The notes under the pieces are model-generated. The model saw only the letters and a list, made by a program, of their open reading frames with translations. It was not told the origin of the DNA and did no database searches. The translations under genes were made by a program, and so were the position numbers. Shown here piece by piece: positions 4,701-51,295 of a DNA stretch of 64,000 nucleotides. The stretch comes from a virus. Numbering within the stretch: the first letter of the stretch is position 1; the number at the start of each line of letters is the position of its first letter. The stretch lies in IMG/VR virus record IMGVR_UViG_3300009508_000011, positions 142,118-206,117 of that record. One strand, written 5' to 3'.

Positions 4701-7700
4701 TTGGCTTAGACCGTAAACTTAAAAACCAAGTCGATGTGTATGTTAAAAGTCGCATGGGGGATGGCCCTGCTTTATTAAGGACTAAATTACTACGTGGTGC
4801 TTACTTCGATAAGGATGGTAATTCGATATTCTCCATTGGGGACATCGATGGACCTGTCTACGATGAAGAAGGTAACATGGTTCTTACCGATGAAGATATT
4901 TCAGCTGGATTAGTTGACCCTCAGGGTGAAGAGATTCAAATTGCTGGATTATTCGGTAACGGCGTTGGTATGATTGGTTCTGGTATTGGGTTAGCAAAGA
5001 CTGCTGGTTCTAAAGTGTGGGAAGCCTTAAAGGGTTACTACTCTGGAATTGGAAAAGCTGGTAAGAGTCTGCTAGATAGATTTAAGGGTGGTATTCCATC
5101 TATGGGTGGCGGTGATGTTGATGTAATGAACATCAGTGCTAACACAGTTTACCTTAATGGTAACATCCAACAATCTCCTGCGGAAGCTGCTGGTACAGCT
5201 GCACCTACCGTTAACGAAAATGTTAGCGATATTGGGGAGCAGTTGAAAGGTACTGCTACAAACATCAAAGACCGTGCTACTGAAGAAATAAGCGTTGCTG
5301 CTTCAAAGGCTAAAGATGTTGCCGATAAGGCTGTCGACAAAGTCAAGTCTGTAGATACAACCAAAGCTGAAGAGACTATCAAGGATGTTAAGAACAAAGC
5401 TACTGACAAGCTTGCTCAGGCTAAGGATAAACTACTTGGTAAGGAACTCGGTGAGGATACTGTATTAGTTGGTGATGCTGATGGTAACGTTAGTATTAAG
5501 ACTGAGAACAATACAATCCCTGCTGGCGATGGTTCTACCAAAGGCTATATGGCTTCATTGCTAGCTTACTTCCATGGTAAGGATGACCGTGAACTGAATG
5601 ACACCGACGGTGATGGTTTCAGGGACGGTGGTTGGAGAAGTAAACTCTTCGGTAAAGATGAAGAGGAAGACGGAACCGACAAGGGTGATGGTCAATCTGA
5701 AACTAAACCTAAAGGAAAAGGTATGCTAGCTGGTTTAGCTGGTGCACTTGGGTTTGGTGGAGATGATGATGACGGTGGTAGTCTGGCTGGTGATATAGCA
5801 TCTGAAGCTGCTGGTGAAGTTATCGGTGATAAAATATCCGGTAATGGTAAAGATGAAGATGGTGGTCGTAGAAGACGCAACGGTCCTAAGGTTAAACCAA
5901 AGGGTCGTATGGGTCGAGCATGGCAAGCCATTAAAGGTGTCGGTAGTGGGGCTAAGAAATTAGCTACGTCTGGTAAAGGCCTTGGTCTACTAGGTGGGAC
6001 TGCTGCTACTATTAGTACCGCAGGTGGAATGCTCTCAGGGGCTGGTGGTTCTGTAGCTACTAAGATGGCTGCTACATCAGGACTTAAGAAAGCCGCACTG
6101 TGGGGACTCAAGGGAGCATTAGGTTTAGCAGGTGGTATCTTAGCTGCGCCAGCAGTTGGAACAGCCTTAGCGATAGCCGGAGCTGCTTATACGGCATATG
6201 AAGTATTTAGCTTCTTTAGTAACCGTGAAGGCACTGAGCCATTGGAAGAATACCGCTTCCGTCAGTATGGTTTAGACCCAGAGGACAGTAGTCACCGTTC
6301 ATTCATTCGTCAGTTAGAAGATGAAGCAATTGACCATGTTAATTATCGTGGTCAAGAGGGAACTGAGAATAGTCTAGATTTACCAGAGGACTTCCATGAT
6401 GACATTCTGGAACTATTGAATATAGACCTTAGTGTTCCTTACGAAGAAGACCCAGAGAACTCTAGACGAGCAAGTGCTTACGGTCAGTGGTTCAATAACA
6501 GATTTAAAGAGGTATTCCTTTTACATCATGGTATTTCCATGGCGTTGGACCCCGATGTTGATTTGTTGGACATTGATGATGAGTTAGATGACTCTAAGAA
6601 GTTAAAGTTTACTAAGGGAGCTTACTATCCTAACGATGGAACTGGTCGCAGCCCTTACTTCATTCCAGCAGATATGATGGAGGATTATGAATCTGATGTC
6701 GGTTACGACAAGATTGATGAGATGAAGAAAGGTCTCATGGAAGAGTACAAGGAAGATGCTGAAGGCGAAGAGAAGACCAAAGAAGAAGGTTCTAGTTTCT
6801 TAAGTAAATTAGGAACAGCTGCTTTAGCGGTGACTCCAGTTGGTGCTTCATTAGCACTTAAGAAAGTCATCAGCGATAAACCTAAAACGGAAGACAAGGT
6901 TGCTGAAGTAGTTGAGGGTGATGGTGGAAAGGAAGTAGTTACTGAAAGAAAAAGAGCTGACTACGACGCCATAAAGGCAAAAGCCCTGTCCCGAATGTCC
7001 GATAAAACTAGGCAATATATAGAAGGTAAAACTGAAGAACGGTCTGCTAAGGCTGGTACTGAAGCAGTTACTAAACCACCTATATCTACAGCCACTGCTG
7101 TGAAGCGTAAGTTGAAGACTTCTAAGGTCTCTGGTAAGAGCGGGTTTATAATGCCCACTGATGGAAGAATAACTTCTAACTTTGGTAAGAACACCAACTC
7201 CGATACTGGTGAGGTTACTTTTAATTCTGGTATAGATATCGTTGCTCCTAAGGGAACAGAGGTATTGGCTACTCAGGGTGGGGTGATAACTCGTAGAGGA
7301 TACTCTCGCAATGATGGTAATGTTATCTACATCGATAATGATGATGGTACACATAGCCGTTACGCTAATCTTGACAAATTCGAAGCTGGCTATACGGTTG
7401 GTGATAGAGTTGAACAAGGGGCTAAAATTGCAGAGGTTGGTGACACTGGTTGGGTTACTAGTCCAAGACTACACTTCGAGGTTCGTAAAAATGCGCACGA
7501 TAAGAAATCTGCTGTAAATCCACTTGACCTATTCAAGGGTTCAGTTGGAACTAAGGCTAAGGAACAAGTCGCTGCTGCTATTAAAGAATCTAAAGAGCAA
7601 GTTAAGGTTAGTAAGACGCATGACCAGAAACGTGAGAACGTATCACGTAAGACCACTCCTTTAGTTAAACCTAGTTTAATGGTCCCTACTCAGGTAGGTA

Positions 7701-41969: not shown

Positions 41970-44900
41970 ATGTCACAGTTAGATGTTTTAATGCGCGACC
42001 AGCATTCCCTACTGCGTGTACGCAAGATAATGCAGAAGCAAACAGACGGTGCGTGGAATACCATGTACTCTCTAAGTAACGATGCTGAAGTTTCTACTGC
42101 ATGGGAAACTGGTGTGCAAACCCAGACCCAATGGGATTCTATTTTCACCACTAGTCACAGCACAATCAGTGCGTTTGATACTGACGTTGTTACTAGTAAA
42201 CAAACAGGCACGGCTTGGATTACTGACCGAACTACCGACGCTTCTAGAATAACTGCTGCTTCTACTCAAACAGAGTGGACTACCAGTCGTATTACAGAAC
42301 ACGCTACTTCTCAGGATACCCAAACCAACTGGAACATTCAGACGACAACTTCTTTTGTTACTGACCAAACCACACAAACCGATTGGACGTCTAATCGTCA
42401 AACTGACTATAGCTATTCTAAGTCAACTACGACCAATTGGACTACTGTTGTGGATACAACTTTAACTACCAATAGAAGTACAACGACTCAATGGACGACG
42501 TCTCACTCGTCAGCTACTATGTGGACTACAAGTCACAGTACTGATTATAATACGTCACATACTACTACTACCTCATGGAATACCAGTCAGGCTACCAACA
42601 AGTCAACTACGACCCAATGGACTACTGCCCGCGATACAAGTAATAGTACTTCCAAGTCTACCAATACGGTATGGACAACTGGACACGCAACGACTAGAAC
42701 CACTACGGTTAATAAAAATACCGCAGGTACTACGTCACGCAGTACTAGTAGGTCTACCTCGACTGCGTTCAATACGTCAGTAACAACTAGTCACAGTACT
42801 ACAACTCTGTGGGGCACTGCTGTAACAACAACGTTCAGTACTAGTAGGTCCACGAGTACTAGTTATGGAACATCGTATAATACAAGTAGAAGTACAGCTA
42901 CCAGTTTCAATACTTCACACAGTACGACAAAGACCGCATCTAGAAGCACAACAACTTCTTACAATACTACCTGGGGAACTTCTCACGGTACGTCTAAGTC
43001 TACTTCGTATAGTGCAAGTACTAGTTGGACTACTTCGCATGGAACGTCTAGAAATACCTCTTATAGTGCTACTACTACTTGGAGTACTGCTAAATCAAAG
43101 ACAACGTCTAGGTCTACGACAAAGTCAAAGACAACGTCTAGGTCTACGACCAAAGCAGCTAGTAGAACCACCACATGGACAACTAACTATTGGACATTTT
43201 GGGGTGAGGATTGGGATGGTGCTGGTGGTTCAAGTAGACAGACAAGTAGAAGTACTTCTGGTACTACTTCCTGGAATTACTCTGCAACAACTAGTTTCAG
43301 TACTAGTTACGCTGCCAATACGTCGTATACAACCTCGTATTCAGCTAATACTAGTAGGTCTACGACCAAGTCTCGCTCTACTTCTTTAACAACTAGTTAT
43401 AGCACTAGTAGGTCTACGACCAAGGCACGTACTACTAGCTACACTACTAGTTACAATACGTCTAAGTCTACGTCTAAATCTACTAACACTTCTTGGGGTT
43501 ACTCTGCCAATACTACGTATGGTACATCCAAGAATACTGTAACTACTTTTGGTACTTCCCACACCACTTCCAAGAGTACAAATACTTCTTGGAATACGTC
43601 ACGTGGTACTACTAGAAACACGTCTAGAACCACAAGTACTGCGTATGGAACTACGTGGGTAACGTCTAAGAGTACTAACACTACTTATAACACGACTTAC
43701 GCCACAACTAAAGTTACTACGTCTAGTTGGTCAACTGGGTACACTACTAACTATGCCACTAACAAGTCAACTACGACTACGTGGACTACGACGAAGAGTA
43801 CCAACGTGGTGACTGGTAAGTCAACAGATACTACATGGACAACATCGTGGGGTACGTCTAAATCCACTACGACTACTTACGCAACTGCTAAGGATACTAA
43901 TTACCAAACATCGTTCGGTACATTAACTAGTTATACGACTTCCAAGTCTACTACTACCTCCTTTACAACAGTTCGTGAGACTAACAGAACCACAAGTCAG
44001 GCAACTAACACTGCTTGGTCGGTAAGTTCTACCACTAGTGTTGCAATGAGTACCTCGACCACCACGTCTTGGGACACAAGCAAGTCTACCTCTGAAGCTA
44101 GAAGTGGGACAACCACAACTGCATGGACTACATCGTATAGTACTAACGTGCAAACAACTATCATGACTACAACAAACTGGATGACTTCATTCCAGCGTCA
44201 GACTGATATTGATGCAGGTAAGACAACTACAACAAACTGGGTCACTCAAGTGGCAACAACCACAAGTTGGACTACGTCTTATAGTACCGGTGTATCAACG
44301 GTTAAGTTTACCAATTCAAATTGGACGACTTCGGCCAATACCACTAAAGAGGTTGGTGAACTTACTACGTCGGCAACGACTACGTGGACAACCATGCGTA
44401 ATACCCAAAGTGTGTTCAATACCGCAGGTGATGCTTCTGTGGCTACGGATACTTCTTGGACTACCGCTAAATCTACGTTAACTGTTTGGTCAACGAATAC
44501 TTCAGCGACTACTCAAACAACGTGGTCAACTGATGGTACCATGACCACTAGCGTTGAAATAACTTGGAATACTACCGAATCTCGTAATACAGATTTGGGT
44601 GCCGGTACTATGATTAGTACTGACTTCTTAGTTAGCACAAGTCGTTATAGTGACAGACAAACTGATGGCTCGTTCAATACTTCCGTATCCACTGCAACTG
44701 CATGGGCTACTGATACAGTTAAGTCAACGACAACATCGTGGCAAACTACTATATCAACCACCACTACGGTAGCTGGTAATGTACAAACTACGACTACGTG
44801 GACTACGTCTTACAGCACAACTGCTGATGTTACGTATACTACAAATGCTGACTACACTACCCAGTGGACTACTGCTAGACAGACAGATGTATTACATGCT

Positions 44901-45041
44901 ACGTCGGTTCTAACATCGACTTCTTGGAATACTACTGATTACTACGGTGCAGAGCGTACTACATCACAAGTTGCCTCAACAGCTTGGATAACTGGTGAAG
45001 AACGTCAAACAACGTGGGTTACTAGTCGAACTACTTCTTAA
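41970..45041 (+). CDS. Giant Thr/Ser-rich repeat fibre protein (1023 residues)
   Basis: ATG at 41970 with GGGGAG upstream (a TTG 6 bases earlier is possible). Almost the whole protein is a Thr/Ser-rich quasi-repeat. Locally it runs in a four-residue register T-[ST]-x-x, where x is often Trp, Tyr, Phe, His, Lys or Arg (for example TSYNTTWGTSHGTSKSTSYS). It has almost no Cys, Pro or aliphatic residues, so a conventional hydrophobic core is unlikely. A central block YWTFWGEDWDGAGGSSRQ differs from the rest and is shared with the 1464-residue fibre. Open long frames also exist in other phases because of low stop content; they are not genes. No N-terminal adaptor domain is seen. Position in the fibre island suggests a virion fibre. 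Confidence 0.8.
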   Translation: MSQLDVLMRDQHSLLRVRKIMQKQTDGAWNTMYSLSNDAEVSTAWETGVQTQTQWDSIFTTSHSTISAFDTDVVTSKQTGTAWITDRTTDASRITAASTQTEWTTSRITEHATSQDTQTNWNIQTTTSFVTDQTTQTDWTSNRQTDYSYSKSTTTNWTTVVDTTLTTNRSTTTQWTTSHSSATMWTTSHSTDYNTSHTTTTSWNTSQATNKSTTTQWTTARDTSNSTSKSTNTVWTTGHATTRTTTVNKNTAGTTSRSTSRSTSTAFNTSVTTSHSTTTLWGTAVTTTFSTSRSTSTSYGTSYNTSRSTATSFNTSHSTTKTASRSTTTSYNTTWGTSHGTSKSTSYSASTSWTTSHGTSRNTSYSATTTWSTAKSKTTSRSTTKSKTTSRSTTKAASRTTTWTTNYWTFWGEDWDGAGGSSRQTSRSTSGTTSWNYSATTSFSTSYAANTSYTTSYSANTSRSTTKSRSTSLTTSYSTSRSTTKARTTSYTTSYNTSKSTSKSTNTSWGYSANTTYGTSKNTVTTFGTSHTTSKSTNTSWNTSRGTTRNTSRTTSTAYGTTWVTSKSTNTTYNTTYATTKVTTSSWSTGYTTNYATNKSTTTTWTTTKSTNVVTGKSTDTTWTTSWGTSKSTTTTYATAKDTNYQTSFGTLTSYTTSKSTTTSFTTVRETNRTTSQATNTAWSVSSTTSVAMSTSTTTSWDTSKSTSEARSGTTTTAWTTSYSTNVQTTIMTTTNWMTSFQRQTDIDAGKTTTTNWVTQVATTTSWTTSYSTGVSTVKFTNSNWTTSANTTKEVGELTTSATTTWTTMRNTQSVFNTAGDASVATDTSWTTAKSTLTVWSTNTSATTQTTWSTDGTMTTSVEITWNTTESRNTDLGAGTMISTDFLVSTSRYSDRQTDGSFNTSVSTATAWATDTVKSTTTSWQTTISTTTTVAGNVQTTTTWTTSYSTTADVTYTTNADYTTQWTTARQTDVLHATSVLTSTSWNTTDYYGAERTTSQVASTAWITGEERQTTWVTSRTTS
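43095..43154 (+). repeat. 30-base tandem repeat
   Basis: Two 30-base units (43095-43124, 43125-43154), identical over the first 26 bases, encoding SKTTSRSTTK twice. A sign of recent slippage or unequal recombination in the repeat gene. Confidence 0.75.
43161..43258 (+). repeat. 98-base exact repeat shared by the two fibre genes (copy 1)
   Basis: Identical base by base to 49187-49284. It encodes RTTTWTTNYWTFW, then GEDWDGAGGSSRQ, an acidic and Trp-rich insert unlike the surrounding repeat. Confidence 0.9.
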
Positions 45042-45044
45042 TCT

Positions 45045-45077
45045 AAAATGGGGTTGTTTATTCAACCCCTTCGTTTA
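45045..45077 (+). terminator. Hairpin between the fibre and the modification genes
   Basis: 7-bp stem GGGGTTG/CAACCCC with loop TTTATT, preceded by AAAA and followed by TTCGTTT. It may be a leaky terminator that lowers expression of the two genes downstream. Confidence 0.6.
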
Positions 45078-45090
45078 AAGGATGGTTAAA

Positions 45091-45858
45091 TTGAATGACG
45101 TGACAAATAACCGTGCCTCTGTCTTCAGTCAAGTTTGCGGAAAGAGAGGTATTGAATTATCAACTTCCCACAGAGTAAATACTGGAGTATACGGTAAAGG
45201 CAAAGATTTGATTTATGGGGAACTACTAGGTGGGGTGATACTATTACCTAAGTCTCTAGGCCTTCGTATTAGAACTTTGAATGAGGTTATGGACAATAGG
45301 GAACACGATGATTTCATCAAAGACCTTATTCCGGTACATCAAGAAACAACTAACAATGCCAAGGTTGTTGTTCTACCGGAACGTTTTGTCTTGGAAATGA
45401 CCCCTAAGTGTTGTAATCAAATAGTTGATTGGGCTGCTGGTGAACCATGTTTCGTTATACCTATGGGGGATACCCCTCCTGAACTAATTGCAGGACTCCA
45501 TAAGACAGGTGACAATTTTACTATACTATCAACAAATACTGATAGACATGCCCTAATGGTTAGGTCCAAGGAAGCTATGTTCAGTACAGTAGACGCATTG
45601 GGTATTGTGGCTGTTTGGTACAATAAACCTTTCTCTTTTTTGAAAGAAGGTGGTAAACATGACTTTGGTCCGTTTAGACTAATAAATATTTTATTAGCTA
45701 ATGACCTAACCAATAGACGTATACGTCTAAACAATTTACTTAATTCGGAACTTGGTGGGTTTTTTTTACCAACAAAAAATGGTATTAATGAACTTAACAA
45801 ATTCCTAGATTATTACGAGGATAGACATGGAAAATTTACCAATACACATCGCACTTAA
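45091..45858 (+). CDS. Unknown protein coupled to the radical-SAM gene
   Basis: 255 residues if started at TTG (45091), which has AAAGGA 8 bases upstream; an ATG at 45082 sits on the SD itself. Its end overlaps the radical-SAM start by 32 bases, so it is translationally coupled. The sequence has a central ETTNNAKVVVLPERFVLEMT stretch, a Cys-Cys pair (CCNQIVDWAAGEPC) and a C-terminal helical region. No family recognised. Its place suggests a partner such as a substrate-recognition protein; that is inference. Confidence 0.6.
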   Translation: MNDVTNNRASVFSQVCGKRGIELSTSHRVNTGVYGKGKDLIYGELLGGVILLPKSLGLRIRTLNEVMDNREHDDFIKDLIPVHQETTNNAKVVVLPERFVLEMTPKCCNQIVDWAAGEPCFVIPMGDTPPELIAGLHKTGDNFTILSTNTDRHALMVRSKEAMFSTVDALGIVAVWYNKPFSFLKEGGKHDFGPFRLINILLANDLTNRRIRLNNLLNSELGGFFLPTKNGINELNKFLDYYEDRHGKFTNTHRT

Positions 45859-46786
45859 CATGACTAGTGCATGTAACATGGATTGTTCATATTGTTATCA
45901 GGACGCACTAAACTCCGGTAAACGCATGAGCAATCAGGTTTTAGATTCTGTAATAGAAATGCTTAACAAGACAGATGGGCAACGTTTCAGGATAAGTTTT
46001 TTTGGTGGTGAACCAACCCTAGCCAGTAGAGGTATGGAATATTTCATCGATAAGGTAAACATTGATAAGGTGGAGGGTTTTGAACTAACTACAAATGGTA
46101 CAAACATAGACGTAGTTAATAAAATAGCACGCATGGGTTTTGATAAGTCTGGTGGTAGAGTTACTACAGGTGTCCTAGTGTCTAATAAAGACCAACGCAC
46201 GCCACACGAAGAATTGGACCTGGATGTTGTGGATAATTCATATAGATACATAATCAGTGTGGACGATATAGATAACGTGGATGAACAGCTAGTATCTGAG
46301 TTACTAGATAGTGAATTCATACGAGTGGATTTCCGTTTTGACTATTACGGAAATTGGGAAGATATAGAGACATCTAGAGTGGAGCGAGTAATCGAACTAC
46401 TTAGAACCTTCCAACAGGCCACCACCAGATTGGAATTTAGACCACCTAAGATATTTAAACCTGTCTTCGTCAAAAAGTGTCCCTCACCACACATGAGTAT
46501 AGATACAAATGGTGATATAATGCCCTGTCATCGTATGTTCAATAGTACTCGTGGTATAGGTCAGTCGGTAGGTAATATAGTTACTGAAATGGAAGCAGCG
46601 GTAGCACGTCTACAAGCATTCCATCAAGAGATGCATTATAGTAGTGCGTGTATTGGTTTCAATGCTAACATTGGTCAGACTAGTGATACTTACGTTCTTA
46701 GTCTAGGTACTGTAGAGTTTGAAGAACGCTCAGAACCTATGCAAGAAGGTGAACTACAGGCGGCAATCCAACAGAGCTGTCGCTAA
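45827..46786 (+). CDS. Radical-SAM enzyme, SPASM-like, fibre-modification candidate
   Basis: 319 residues with SD AGGA before ATG. The N-terminal TSACNMDCSYCYQ contains CxxxCxxC (C16, C20, C23), which holds the 4Fe-4S cluster that cleaves SAM. GGEP (60-63) is the SAM-binding motif, and TTNGT follows at 88-92. The C-terminal part has C218, C234, C275 and C318, including IDTNGDIMPCHR, as in SPASM/twitch domains of peptide maturases. Such enzymes install C-C, C-S or C-O cross-links or epimerise residues in peptides. Neighbouring repeat fibres are the obvious substrates, but this is inferred from location. Confidence 0.85.
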   Translation: MENLPIHIALNMTSACNMDCSYCYQDALNSGKRMSNQVLDSVIEMLNKTDGQRFRISFFGGEPTLASRGMEYFIDKVNIDKVEGFELTTNGTNIDVVNKIARMGFDKSGGRVTTGVLVSNKDQRTPHEELDLDVVDNSYRYIISVDDIDNVDEQLVSELLDSEFIRVDFRFDYYGNWEDIETSRVERVIELLRTFQQATTRLEFRPPKIFKPVFVKKCPSPHMSIDTNGDIMPCHRMFNSTRGIGQSVGNIVTEMEAAVARLQAFHQEMHYSSACIGFNANIGQTSDTYVLSLGTVEFEERSEPMQEGELQAAIQQSCR

Positions 46787-46814
46787 ATTGTAAAGTTAAA
46801 AAATTACAGTTATA

Positions 46815-46842
46815 GGGAGAGGGCGAAAGCCCTCTCCTTTTA
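46815..46842 (+). terminator. Intrinsic terminator
   Basis: 9-bp stem GGAGAGGGC/GCCCTCTCC closed by a GAAA tetraloop and followed by TTTTAT. Confidence 0.85.
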
Positions 46843-46900
46843 TATGACCGGACGCGGTTAAAATAGAAGATTCTAGAATGTTTTATAAGGATGCATCCCT

Positions 46901-49900
46901 ATGTCAATCGAACCGATAAAGAAATATCCATTCGATAGCACAGCTGAGTCACCGACTAATTATTTTCAAAATGAAAGTCATGTGATTGAGCCGGATGGTC
47001 AAAAGACAATAGTGGTTAGAGCTGGTCCTTTCTACAGCGAAAAACTTGTTGTCCGAACACCGTCGGCTATTGAACCCCTTGTGCGTGGTGAAGATTACCA
47101 CATCAAATATCTTTTTGAAGACGCAACACTGAAGACAGGTAAGGAAGTACACATTGCCATTTCGATGGTGGACCCTAACTGGCACGGAGAACTATTACTC
47201 TCCGGGCAAGTAGTTGGTGGCGATTACTCTCACTTGTATCCTACGGTTGTGAATATCGTAAATGATATTAAAAAGAACTACGAGTCAGTAAGTTACGCCG
47301 ATTTAGAAAATGTACCAACAGCTTTTCCTCCAACTAGCCATGCTCACAATGTCAGAGACCTGACGGACATGGATGAGTTGATTATGGCGATAAAAGAAAA
47401 CAGTGCCAACCTTAGTGGTGCATTGTTATTCAATACTCGACCATTAGAGCGCTTAGTGCGTCAAGCTGTTTCACGTACCGACCGTATTCAACGTCAACCT
47501 TTTGAGGGTTCGACATATGTAGGGAGACATACAGGTCCACTTACATTCATAATGCCTGGTACACAAACCCATAACTCTAACTTTGTAGCACGTATTCAAA
47601 TACAGAACCACGAAGGCTTTGAAATCCTTACTGTGTCTGCCAAAGAAAACTTGGAACTAATTGAAGAAGTTAGAGTACATAGCGATACCAGTTTAGCGGT
47701 TGATATATACCGCGATAAAAATATGCGTATCTGTGTATCCATGGGTGATGATACTGAAGAGTGGATTGATGCCACCGTAGGTATTGAAAGTATCATGTGG
47801 AGTGTGGACGACCCGGTTTACCGTGAAGTACCACTGCGTTGGTCGCACTTGTCAGTTGACGAACTTAAAACTCGTGAACCTACCCACATGGAAAAAATTC
47901 TTGTTGTTGGTTCTCAGGCAGCGGGACAGATGTATGGTTTCAGCGATGGTATCATTCCAGATTTTGGAAACTCCATTGTACCTATGTCACTTACTGAACC
48001 TAGTGAAGAAGAAGTTCGTCTTCGCGAAATTGAAGCCTCATTAGGTATTCTAGAGCCTCGTATCTTTGGTAGCTTAACCAGACCTGATATAGGCGGCGCT
48101 CCGATTCGACAATGGGTAAGTGTTAATGATGATAGTGGTACAAATACCATTATACGTGTTGCCAACATTCCTGAGGGAATGATAGATGACATGGACAATT
48201 CATTACGTTGGGTACTTCGTGTAAACGATTTAGATGGTTATGTCTATACCGAACCTGCGGTTATTCTATCAGATGGTTCTGTTGCTTGGCGCTTCAAAGG
48301 TTCCGAACTTGCCGATTGGCATTATTGGGAATATGGTAGAGCAATTCAAGAACGTTTAGAAATCGCTAAGGTTCCTTTACATGCATTGGATGGTATTACT
48401 AAACCTGAACAGTTAGACCCGTATATCCTTACTAGTATTCCTACTTGGGGTACGATATGGGATACTGCCTATGGCACAACTTACTCAACTACCCAGTTCG
48501 AGAAAGCAAATACTCAATGGCTTACTGAAGCAGGTCCTGAAGCAGAGACCAGTAGAAGTACCACATGGGACACTACTAATCTCACTAACAAGACAACAAC
48601 CGTTGAAGGTACTGGTGATTACCAAACTCTTTGGACTACCAATAAAACTACCTCAACTACCTACAACACTGGTTACAACACCGATACGTCTCGTAGTACT
48701 AACAGGTCTACAACGACTACTTGGTCTACGGCTACAGGTAAGACTACAAGTCGCGCCACTCAGAAGTCTACGACAACTGCTTGGACAACTTCGTTCAGTA
48801 CTACCAAGTCGCGTACAACCGATGCTGGTACACAGACTACTTGGAACACAAGTAAGTCTACCACTAAGTCACATGTAACAAGTGTGAGTACTGGTGGGTC
48901 TAGAACAACTAGTAAGTCTACAACTACGAGCTATGGTACCAACTACAGCACTAGTTATAACACTAACTATACTACCAGCAGAACTACAAGCACTGCATTT
49001 GGCACTAGTAAGAGTACAACAACTAGTTACACAACTGGTTATACTACTAATTACAACACCACTTACAGCACTAGTAAGTCAACAACGACCAGTAAGTCAA
49101 CATCTAAAACCACTAGTAAGAGTACAACAACTAGTTACCAAGCTAGTCGTTCAACTACACATAGTAGGTCTACGACCAAAACCGCGAGTAGAACCACCAC
49201 ATGGACAACTAACTATTGGACATTTTGGGGTGAGGATTGGGATGGTGCTGGTGGTTCAAGTAGACAGACAAGTAGAAGTACTTCCATAACCACGTCTTGG
49301 GACTATTCTGCAACAACTAGTTGGAGTGCCAATACTGCAATTACGGCATCTAAAACCACTAATACGTCTTTCAACACTACGTATAACACTAGCTATGCTA
49401 CGACCACCGCGTGGAACACGTCACACGGAACTTCTCACGGTACGTCTAAGTCTACCTCTAAGAGTACGACTACAACATGGACCACTAGTAAGAACACTGG
49501 GACATCTTGGACAACTGGACATACTACTAGTAGGGCTACAAGTCACGTTACTAGCAAGGCTACAACAACAAGTTATAGTACAGCCATTGGTGCAACAACC
49601 TCATGGACTACGTCGTACAGTGCAAACACTACGTTTAGTACTAACAAGACTACTACAACACAATGGGCGACTAACTACTCAGGTGGTACATCGCGTTCAA
49701 CTAACCAGTCAACTACGACTTCTTGGAATACAAACTACTCAACCGGTAGTTCTAAGAATACTAGCGCCACTACTACTACAACGTTTACTACTACGTTTAG
49801 TACTACAACTGGCGTGGCTACTAGCCGTGACACAACTACTGCATACCAGACATCTCGCACGACCACAGGCTTTAGTAATGTGAGCGTAACAAGATTAACT

Positions 49901-51295
49901 GAAGCAGAAACATCCGTAATTACAAATGGTGAAGTGTTGACTACATGGTCTACATCTAGAACCACAAGTGGTGAAATGTTATCACAAACTACTACAAGCT
50001 GGTCTACGGACTATGTGGATGGTACGGCGTGGTCAACTAGTAAGGTTACAAGTAAGAATACTACCAGAACAACGAATACTACATTCGATACTTCTGCAAG
50101 TACTACAGTGGATTCTACAAGTACGTTCACAACGTCTTGGGATACTTCTGTATCAACATCTATTGACACTTCAGCTACTACAGTTACATCGTGGAACACT
50201 GTACGTGATACATCAATGTTGACGTCTAAGGAAACTGTGACGGTATTCAGTACTGTAATTGATGGTGTTACAAGAGAGACTATTACTTCTTGGACTACCG
50301 AATTCTCGACAACTCATGCGACAAGTATTGCGACTAGCCAGTCTACAACGACTAGCTGGACAATATCTACTGGAGCTACGACAAGTCAGGATACAACTAC
50401 ATCTTGGAACACGAACGTTGCGACGATTGCTAACACTTCTAGAAGTACAGTTAGTTCTATGTCAACCATTGTGGATGGTGAAACTGTTCAAACGGCTACC
50501 GTATGGACAACCAACTTTAGTACTGCTGTTAATACGGCAATTGCTACAAGTGCAACTACCACAACAACTTGGGGTATTGGTGGTAATACTACCAGAACTA
50601 CAAGTGTGGAAACTTCGACAAGTGCTTCTGTTACAGCAGATACAACGTGGTCTACCACGGCGTCAACTGTAACTCAATGGTCTACTGCTGATACCACATC
50701 CTGGACAACAGGTGTGAACACGACGCATACTAAGACTACTGAGGCTACAACAGCCACAAGCTGGACGAGTTCTGTAGTAACAACGTACGAGACAGGTGCA
50801 TTGACGGCCACAAGCTGGACAACGCTTAAAGATACCCGTTTCAATACGACGTACTCTACAACAGTACAAACTGGTGCAAGTGTTACAACTGCATGGGAAA
50901 CTCAGGCTTCAACGTCTGGACAGACTCAAGTTGTATTACGCTCTACTAATACTGGAGTTGCAACATCAGTTTCAACTACGTGGGATACGGAAGTAACGAC
51001 TCAGTATAACACAAGTCGTGGTACTACAGTAAGCTGGCAGACAGCGCATCCAAGTGACCCAACTACAACGTTGACCACTAGCGCCGATGTGAGCACTGCA
51101 TGGGTTGAAGAAGAAACAGTTCAAGTTAGCACGTCTAGCTCGTACATGACAGTTGCGGAAAGTGCGTTCTTAACAGAACATACTCAAAACACTGACTGGT
51201 ACACTGCTGTTAATACCGACGTCTTAGTTACTGAGACTTCATCGGTTCAAACTTCTGTAACCACTTCTCGTGATACGAGTTGGCAAGGTACTTAA
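46901..51295 (+). CDS. Giant Thr/Ser-rich repeat fibre with N-terminal adaptor (1464 residues)
   Basis: SD AAGGA precedes ATG. Residues 1-165 match the N-terminus of the 510-residue fibre protein. Residues about 165-510 are a normal folded, beta-rich region. From about residue 515 to the end the protein becomes the same Thr/Ser-rich repeat as the 1023-residue fibre, with Trp, Tyr, Phe, His, Lys and Arg at regular places. The YWTFWGEDWDGAGGSSRQ block lies near residue 768. It is thus a docked fibre with a 900-residue repeat shaft. The radical-SAM gene upstream may act on it. Not recognised from a known family. Confidence 0.8.
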   Translation: MSIEPIKKYPFDSTAESPTNYFQNESHVIEPDGQKTIVVRAGPFYSEKLVVRTPSAIEPLVRGEDYHIKYLFEDATLKTGKEVHIAISMVDPNWHGELLLSGQVVGGDYSHLYPTVVNIVNDIKKNYESVSYADLENVPTAFPPTSHAHNVRDLTDMDELIMAIKENSANLSGALLFNTRPLERLVRQAVSRTDRIQRQPFEGSTYVGRHTGPLTFIMPGTQTHNSNFVARIQIQNHEGFEILTVSAKENLELIEEVRVHSDTSLAVDIYRDKNMRICVSMGDDTEEWIDATVGIESIMWSVDDPVYREVPLRWSHLSVDELKTREPTHMEKILVVGSQAAGQMYGFSDGIIPDFGNSIVPMSLTEPSEEEVRLREIEASLGILEPRIFGSLTRPDIGGAPIRQWVSVNDDSGTNTIIRVANIPEGMIDDMDNSLRWVLRVNDLDGYVYTEPAVILSDGSVAWRFKGSELADWHYWEYGRAIQERLEIAKVPLHALDGITKPEQLDPYILTSIPTWGTIWDTAYGTTYSTTQFEKANTQWLTEAGPEAETSRSTTWDTTNLTNKTTTVEGTGDYQTLWTTNKTTSTTYNTGYNTDTSRSTNRSTTTTWSTATGKTTSRATQKSTTTAWTTSFSTTKSRTTDAGTQTTWNTSKSTTKSHVTSVSTGGSRTTSKSTTTSYGTNYSTSYNTNYTTSRTTSTAFGTSKSTTTSYTTGYTTNYNTTYSTSKSTTTSKSTSKTTSKSTTTSYQASRSTTHSRSTTKTASRTTTWTTNYWTFWGEDWDGAGGSSRQTSRSTSITTSWDYSATTSWSANTAITASKTTNTSFNTTYNTSYATTTAWNTSHGTSHGTSKSTSKSTTTTWTTSKNTGTSWTTGHTTSRATSHVTSKATTTSYSTAIGATTSWTTSYSANTTFSTNKTTTTQWATNYSGGTSRSTNQSTTTSWNTNYSTGSSKNTSATTTTTFTTTFSTTTGVATSRDTTTAYQTSRTTTGFSNVSVTRLTEAETSVITNGEVLTTWSTSRTTSGEMLSQTTTSWSTDYVDGTAWSTSKVTSKNTTRTTNTTFDTSASTTVDSTSTFTTSWDTSVSTSIDTSATTVTSWNTVRDTSMLTSKETVTVFSTVIDGVTRETITSWTTEFSTTHATSIATSQSTTTSWTISTGATTSQDTTTSWNTNVATIANTSRSTVSSMSTIVDGETVQTATVWTTNFSTAVNTAIATSATTTTTWGIGGNTTRTTSVETSTSASVTADTTWSTTASTVTQWSTADTTSWTTGVNTTHTKTTEATTATSWTSSVVTTYETGALTATSWTTLKDTRFNTTYSTTVQTGASVTTAWETQASTSGQTQVVLRSTNTGVATSVSTTWDTEVTTQYNTSRGTTVSWQTAHPSDPTTTLTTSADVSTAWVEEETVQVSTSSSYMTVAESAFLTEHTQNTDWYTAVNTDVLVTETSSVQTSVTTSRDTSWQGT
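49187..49284 (+). repeat. 98-base exact repeat shared by the two fibre genes (copy 2)
   Basis: Identical to 43161-43258; the flanking repeat sequence is diverged. See the first copy. Confidence 0.9.

Follow-up and report, generated by a model that had tools for sequence, protein, structure and literature searches.

Thr/Ser-rich phage fibres with a sugar-enzyme-like partner family, and a radical-SAM gene placed between two such fibres in jumbo phages

Introduction

A 64,000-nucleotide stretch of viral DNA (IMG/VR record IMGVR_UViG_3300009508_000011, positions 142,118 to 206,117; hereafter designated the window) carries, between two giant Thr/Ser-rich (T/S) fibre genes, a gene for a radical S-adenosylmethionine (SAM) protein together with an overlapping gene, whose product is here called the companion. 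This arrangement, described in an earlier note, was confirmed in its coordinates by a re-check of the open reading frames (ORFs). What, then, does a radical-SAM protein do between two fibres? The earlier note proposed that it cross-links aromatic-x-Thr motifs of the fibres into cyclophanes, a chemistry that the comparisons below do not support. From the gene arrangements, the protein most likely modifies the T/S fibres or their glycans, since SAM-dependent enzymes hold a comparable position between fibres in other phages.

T/S fibres and the KPHP family

T/S fibres constitute a widespread class of phage fibres with a dedicated partner family of about 300 amino acids (aa). When IMG/VR was scanned with a degenerate DNA pattern coding for T-[ST]-K-[ST]-T-T-T-[ST]-W-x-T, 109 stretches matched, nearly all with giant T/S ORFs (called by composition, the gene calls being mechanical), and their recurrent neighbour was a ~300-aa family with the motif FKPHPITTH, designated the KPHP family, which corresponds to phrog_26179 (E 5e-35 for a typical member). 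A KPHP gene was present in all 64 untruncated loci found via the T/S pattern. Scanning with the KPHP alignment gave 435 relatives, of which 80 loci were kept for analysis; among these, retrieved solely through KPHP homology, a T/S fibre lay immediately upstream in 48 of 48 unique loci with enough upstream sequence. With all loci pooled, a T/S ORF directly adjoined 81 of the 83 unique KPHP genes whose upstream sequence was long enough, and stood one gene away from the other two.

The fibres occur across marine phages, and also in KVP40 and in Caulobacter phages. Among cultured phages, the pair of T/S protein and KPHP is carried by Caulobacter phages Lullwater, BL199 and Cr30 and by KVP40-like vibriophages, in which the annotation of the T/S protein reads 'cell wall mannoprotein'; in these cultured phages it is short (117–218 aa). 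A tblastn search of phages and plasmids with the fibre repeat gave no matches, probably because of low-complexity masking. The KPHP partner falls within phrog_26179/phrog_30602, which are listed with unknown function, with the companion as a diverged homologue; the open-licence literature searched yielded no earlier account of the module, its fibre linkage or the structural model presented below.

Some members of the family have neighbours of other kinds. Vibrio phage phi-pp2 (L183:8211-14086) has a T/S protein, KPHP, a QueC-like (PP-loop) gene and two radical-SAM genes of the MoaA/NifB/PqqE type within 6 kb, in an order similar to that in Vibrio phages F86 and 6E35.1a, and in Stenotrophomonas phage DLP_6 the KPHP gene follows a large protein whose repeats look different and Ig-like.

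Predicted fold of the KPHP proteins

The AlphaFold2 model of a typical KPHP protein (predicted local distance difference test score, pLDDT, 90.7) matched in Foldseek mostly sugar-nucleotide enzymes of the glycosyltransferase (GT)-B type, with best E values of 2e-4 to 3e-4 and template-modelling (TM) scores of up to 0.41. The best full-length match was KpsC, a GT-B Kdo transferase of capsule synthesis (prob 1.00, E=2.8e-4, TM 0.41), followed by UDP-GlcNAc 2-epimerases, TagF and GtfA; the lowest E value belonged to 8ahe, an entry named after a fragment-capture study. KPHP differs from KpsC in being a phage gene adjoining a fibre, in a TM-score of only ~0.4 at 10% identity, and in having a jumbo-phage homologue, the companion, without the HP motif. 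The matches are thus suggestive of a GT-B fold for the KPHP model.

SAM-dependent enzymes between tandem fibres

In 31 of 41 unique loci with at least two tandem T/S fibres upstream of KPHP, a class-I SAM-dependent enzyme was encoded between the fibres: 19 were SpdS-like, 11 were like guanidinoacetate methyltransferase (GAMT), one locus had both, and the remaining 10 had nothing there. The GAMT-like proteins matched guanidinoacetate methyltransferase with E 4e-17, and one of the 11 loci has an extra 60-aa ORF between the fibres; the GLGxG motif of the SpdS-like proteins is largely retained. No radical-SAM gene was present in the tandem-fibre/methyltransferase loci examined. In the window phage and its two jumbo-phage relatives, the space between the fibres is filled by the radical-SAM protein and the companion. 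Collectively, these recurrent gene cassettes suggest that phages chemically finish their T/S fibres.

Two features of the GAMT-type loci were noted in passing. The longer GAMT-like proteins (L088:692-1738 and relatives) carry a C-terminal intein/Hint-like region (TGNHPMI...VGDKLY), and the first fibre of several pairs (L080, L088, L113, L129, L138 and L139) ends in a GGCxRGC[QI]-like sequence, a Cys pair in a protein otherwise free of Cys.

The fibre locus of the jumbo phages

The order fibre 1–companion–radical-SAM–fibre 2 is kept in two IMG/VR contigs of 218 and 208 kb; the counterpart of fibre 1 is an orthologue in one relative (L003) and a contig-edge fragment in the other (L002). The radical-SAM orthologues of the two relatives are 68–70% identical to the window protein, with all seven Cys residues invariant, and pairwise nonsynonymous divergence (dN) among the three phages is 0.24–0.27 with synonymous divergence (dS) saturated or about 2; the gene is therefore under purifying selection. 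There is one radical-SAM gene per record in all three. Alignment scans with the companion, the radical-SAM protein, the fibre 2 N-terminus and fibre 1 of the trio matched only the other two members. The tie between enzyme and fibres that the earlier note saw thus holds insofar as all three phages share the position, a 32-nucleotide overlap and the family of the companion, which makes the gene part of a fibre cassette; its chemistry is another matter, taken up below. Other phages do carry unrelated radical-SAM gene clusters, some of them near structural genes (PMC12390700 among examples), as would be expected if this protein served host takeover or metabolism and had come to lie between the fibres by chance; conservation of both the position and the overlap with the fibre partner, in proteins that have diverged by about 30%, makes such an accident very improbable.

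The companion aligned with the KPHP family over 236 columns in hhalign (prob 97.5, E=7.7e-12), showing full-length homology in addition to T/S fibre adjacency. The family was seen by profile comparison only, as tblastn of the companion alone against phages gave no matches. Its model (pLDDT 83.6) matched mostly GT-B-type enzymes in Foldseek, with E no better than 1.9e-3. The K-P-H-P motif is lost in the companions of all three jumbo phages (FVIPMGDTP in the window, 45451-45477). All three jumbo genomes also encode an intact KPHP protein, with the HP motif kept, about 100 kb from the fibre locus, followed by a Glyco_transf_8 (GT8)-like gene, which scores 31.5 bits in one genome, where it passes the cut-off, and about 18 bits in each of the others.

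Loss of this motif, and the universal adjacency to very long fibres, which recalls dedicated tail-fibre chaperones, would also fit KPHP, the companion and the methyltransferase-like or radical-SAM proteins acting as folding or assembly chaperones built on recycled enzyme folds, without any chemistry. We consider this improbable: the HP motif is retained in at least 90% of aligned KPHP members and in the in-trans jumbo copies, the CxxxCxxC motif of the radical-SAM protein is invariant, and the SpdS-like proteins have largely kept their own motif.

Domains and relatives of the radical-SAM protein

The protein belongs to the radical-SAM superfamily (Pfam Radical_SAM PF04055, 46.2 bits with the cut-off at 29.5, E 7.4e-12; phrog_1802, E 3.3e-19). 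It contains exactly seven Cys residues, C16/C20/C23, C218-x10-G-x4-C234, C275 and C318. The SPASM-like cysteines reported in the earlier note are thus present as a C218-x10-G-x4-C234 half-motif; the Pfam SPASM score (19.1 bits) lies below the cut-off of 21.5, and the seven-Cys SPASM pattern, C-x9-15-G-x4-C ... CxxCx5Cx3C ... C, is incomplete. Because only C275 and the near-terminal C318 come after the half-motif, the protein likely has at most one auxiliary cluster, which we take to be as in 'twitch' proteins. Its best NCBIfam matches are mostly peptide maturases, with the ranthipeptide maturase PapB first at 80.7 bits, far below the equivalog cut-off of 340. The CxxxCxxC core and the partial SPASM motif are shared with PapB and other SPASM maturases, whereas the candidate substrate here is a giant protein with Cys-less repeats, and no leader-peptide system was recognised.

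The nearest outgroup is WPH65666.1 of Fusobacterium phage phiKSUM (E 7e-23, about 29% identical). It too is encoded in a tail gene module and has a near-terminal Cys, but adjoins a 2030-aa tail-module protein, with no T/S fibre within the 24.7 kb read. The earlier note had named related radical-SAM genes regularly found without such fibres as evidence against its proposal; the phiKSUM gene goes part of the way towards that, as does the lack of a radical-SAM neighbour at most T/S fibres. The co-occurrence that the note suggested looking for in related phages is seen in the two relatives. The remaining viral matches (L004-L012) were mostly radical-SAM clusters without T/S fibres, and bacterial relatives had no T/S fibre in their vicinity. 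In jumbo phage 332-Vera (phiKZ-related), radical-SAM genes likewise lie among structural genes, there numbering eight (PMC12390700), as against one in each jumbo record here. As separate observations, the phage contigs L009, L010 and L012 have clusters of several different radical-SAM genes, the stretches read containing no T/S fibre, and at L004:9076-9594 a small Cys-rich protein directly follows two neighbouring radical-SAM genes, possibly an arrangement like that of ribosomally synthesized and post-translationally modified peptides.

Aromatic-x-Thr motifs and the cross-linking proposal

The two fibres are indeed alike in their repetitive composition, as the earlier note had it, with 35% Thr and 17–18% Ser in both; Pro is absent from fibre 1 and almost absent from the fibre 2 repeats, and the repeats of neither contain Cys. 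The aromatic-x-Thr motifs it had pointed to are frequent, far above chance: they take in 73 of 97 aromatic residues of fibre 1, where shuffles gave 34 ± 4.5, and 63 of 82 of fibre 2, where shuffles gave 28.8 ± 4.2. Aromatic–aromatic distances of up to 60 residues are, however, even rather than odd in ratios of 465:62 (fibre 1) and 334:72 (fibre 2), a strict two-residue alternation that accounts for the motif.

A radical-SAM protein whose nearest named models are mostly peptide maturases, beside fibres so enriched in aromatic-x-Thr, could in principle form three-residue cyclophanes or similar cross-links along the shafts and stiffen them. In 109 non-redundant T/S fibres without a radical-SAM neighbour, however, a median of 93% of aromatics stood in this motif (47% expected), compared with 75–77% in the radical-SAM-linked fibres. 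On this control, aromatic-x-Thr was rejected as a target signature of the enzyme: fibres without the enzyme show the motif with no less regularity, so that it reflects a structural periodicity of the T/S class and is no evidence for the enzyme. Moreover, PapB-type thioethers require Cys, of which fibre 1 and the fibre 2 repeats have none, the PapB score is far from the cut-off, and the auxiliary-cluster motif is truncated. Cross-linking of this kind is thus quite improbable.

Proposed modification of the fibres

We put at about even the chance that this fibre class, with its sugar-enzyme-like KPHP partner and often a SAM-dependent enzyme between the fibres, has shafts decorated after translation. 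In the favoured mechanism, the Ser/Thr-rich shaft would be modified post-translationally, with the KPHP enzyme as its probable O-glycosyltransferase; in the jumbo phages, the intact KPHP copy and the GT8-like enzyme would glycosylate in trans, the HP-less companion would be an altered subunit or one without catalytic activity, and the radical-SAM protein, probably co-translated with the companion, would add a radical modification to the fibre polypeptide or glycan before assembly. More tentatively, and with somewhat less confidence than an even chance, these genes may represent a general phage appendage with a swappable modification cassette, comprising a GT-like partner per fibre and a GAMT-like, SpdS-like or radical-SAM enzyme between tandem fibres, the last of which, in jumbo phages, would modify a virion fibre by radical chemistry.

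Several points weigh against the favoured mechanism. The placement of the radical-SAM gene between fibres is known from three closely related phages only, and the 31 methyltransferase loci, most of them from a single marine phage lineage, do not count as independent cases. The two kinds of enzyme would be comparable in position, not by homology, and KPHP follows the second fibre in the methyltransferase loci, not standing between the fibres as does the jumbo companion. The SpdS-like label rests on weak profile matches, the best being a 'methyltransferase domain family' entry and BpumL (E 0.008–0.01), and the GT-B fold of KPHP is likely, not proven, because the TM-scores are low.

Unlikely, though not negligible, is that the radical-SAM protein tailors sugar and not peptide, KPHP and the GT8-like enzyme glycosylating Ser/Thr and the radical-SAM protein (elsewhere the methyltransferase) modifying the glycan or nucleotide-sugar donor. 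Sugar-enzyme-like genes do recur near T/S fibres (the GT-B-like KPHP model, GT8-like, GT4-type, GT25 and DUF4422), and some radical-SAM/twitch enzymes, such as BtrN, work on sugars; the nearest named radical-SAM models, however, are mostly peptide maturases, and GAMT is one of the guanidino N-methyltransferases rather than a sugar methyltransferase.

If the favoured reading is right, and the radical-SAM protein acts on the fibre, a structural protein of a virus would be the target of radical-SAM chemistry, a case for which we know of no precedent. Hundreds of unannotated marine phage fibres are linked here to one partner gene and predicted to carry chemical modifications. These would bear on host binding, on durability and on how virions are detected by proteomics; the prediction is testable in existing strains, because cultured KVP40, Lullwater and Cr30 carry the core pair. 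No SAM-dependent partner is known to us for the virion glycosylation of mycobacteriophages, which resembles the modification proposed here in being a glycan modification of phage virion proteins. As cited in PMC12619734, the glycans there are found at the C-termini of capsid and tail-tube subunits (Freeman et al. 2023), and so, by that account, not on Thr/Ser repeat fibres.

Features of the locus and further observations on the fibres

Table 1. Coordinates of the features discussed; window positions unless a record is named.
Feature	Position	Strand	Basis or remark
T/S fibre 1 (1023 aa); short unique N-terminus, xxTS-type repeats to C-terminus	41970..45041	+	ORF, composition, periodicity
98-bp tract of fibre 1	43161..43258	+	identical to fibre 2 tract 49187-49284
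Companion (258 aa; unknown gene of the earlier note), divergent KPHP-family member	45082..45858	+	hhalign, AlphaFold2, Foldseek
Overlap of companion end and radical-SAM start, 32 nucleotides	45827..45858	+	equal length in 3/3 jumbo phages
Radical-SAM protein (319 aa), truncated twitch-like auxiliary cluster motif	45827..46786	+	Pfam PF04055, phrog_1802, orthologues
CxxxCxxC motif (C16, C20, C23)	45872..45895	+	invariant in the trio
C218-x10-G229-x4-C234 auxiliary cluster half-motif	46478..46528	+	
Invariant C275	46649..46651	+	
Invariant penultimate C318 (protein ends ...SCR)	46778..46780	+	
T/S fibre 2 (1464 aa)	46901..51295	+	ORF; present in both relatives
Virion anchor domain of fibre 2 (phrog_2163)	46913..47398	+	E=2.4e-40, residues 5-166
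T/S repeat part of fibre 2	48536..51292	+	T+S above 40% from about residue 546
Short coiled-coil-looking gene, intact KPHP and GT8-like gene	G000:C1:86075-88252 (= L273:6076-8253)		conserved in all three jumbo genomes; KPHP gene at G000:86432-87280

Many jumbo-phage structural proteins have N-termini resembling the anchor domain of fibre 2. For fibre 1, an identity as the 'serine-rich protein' NF033849 was rejected (18 bits against 650), the match being treated as compositional.

The 98-bp tract common to the two fibres codes for part of an aromatic insert, NYWTFWGEDWDGAGGSSRQTS, plus flank. The relative L003 has a different insert, common to its own two fibres, and the matching of inserts within a pair looks like gene conversion or matched sites. 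In the relative L002, at about 6480-7170, the fibre 2 reading frame shifts near the insert site, owing perhaps to misassembly, perhaps to a genuine frameshift.

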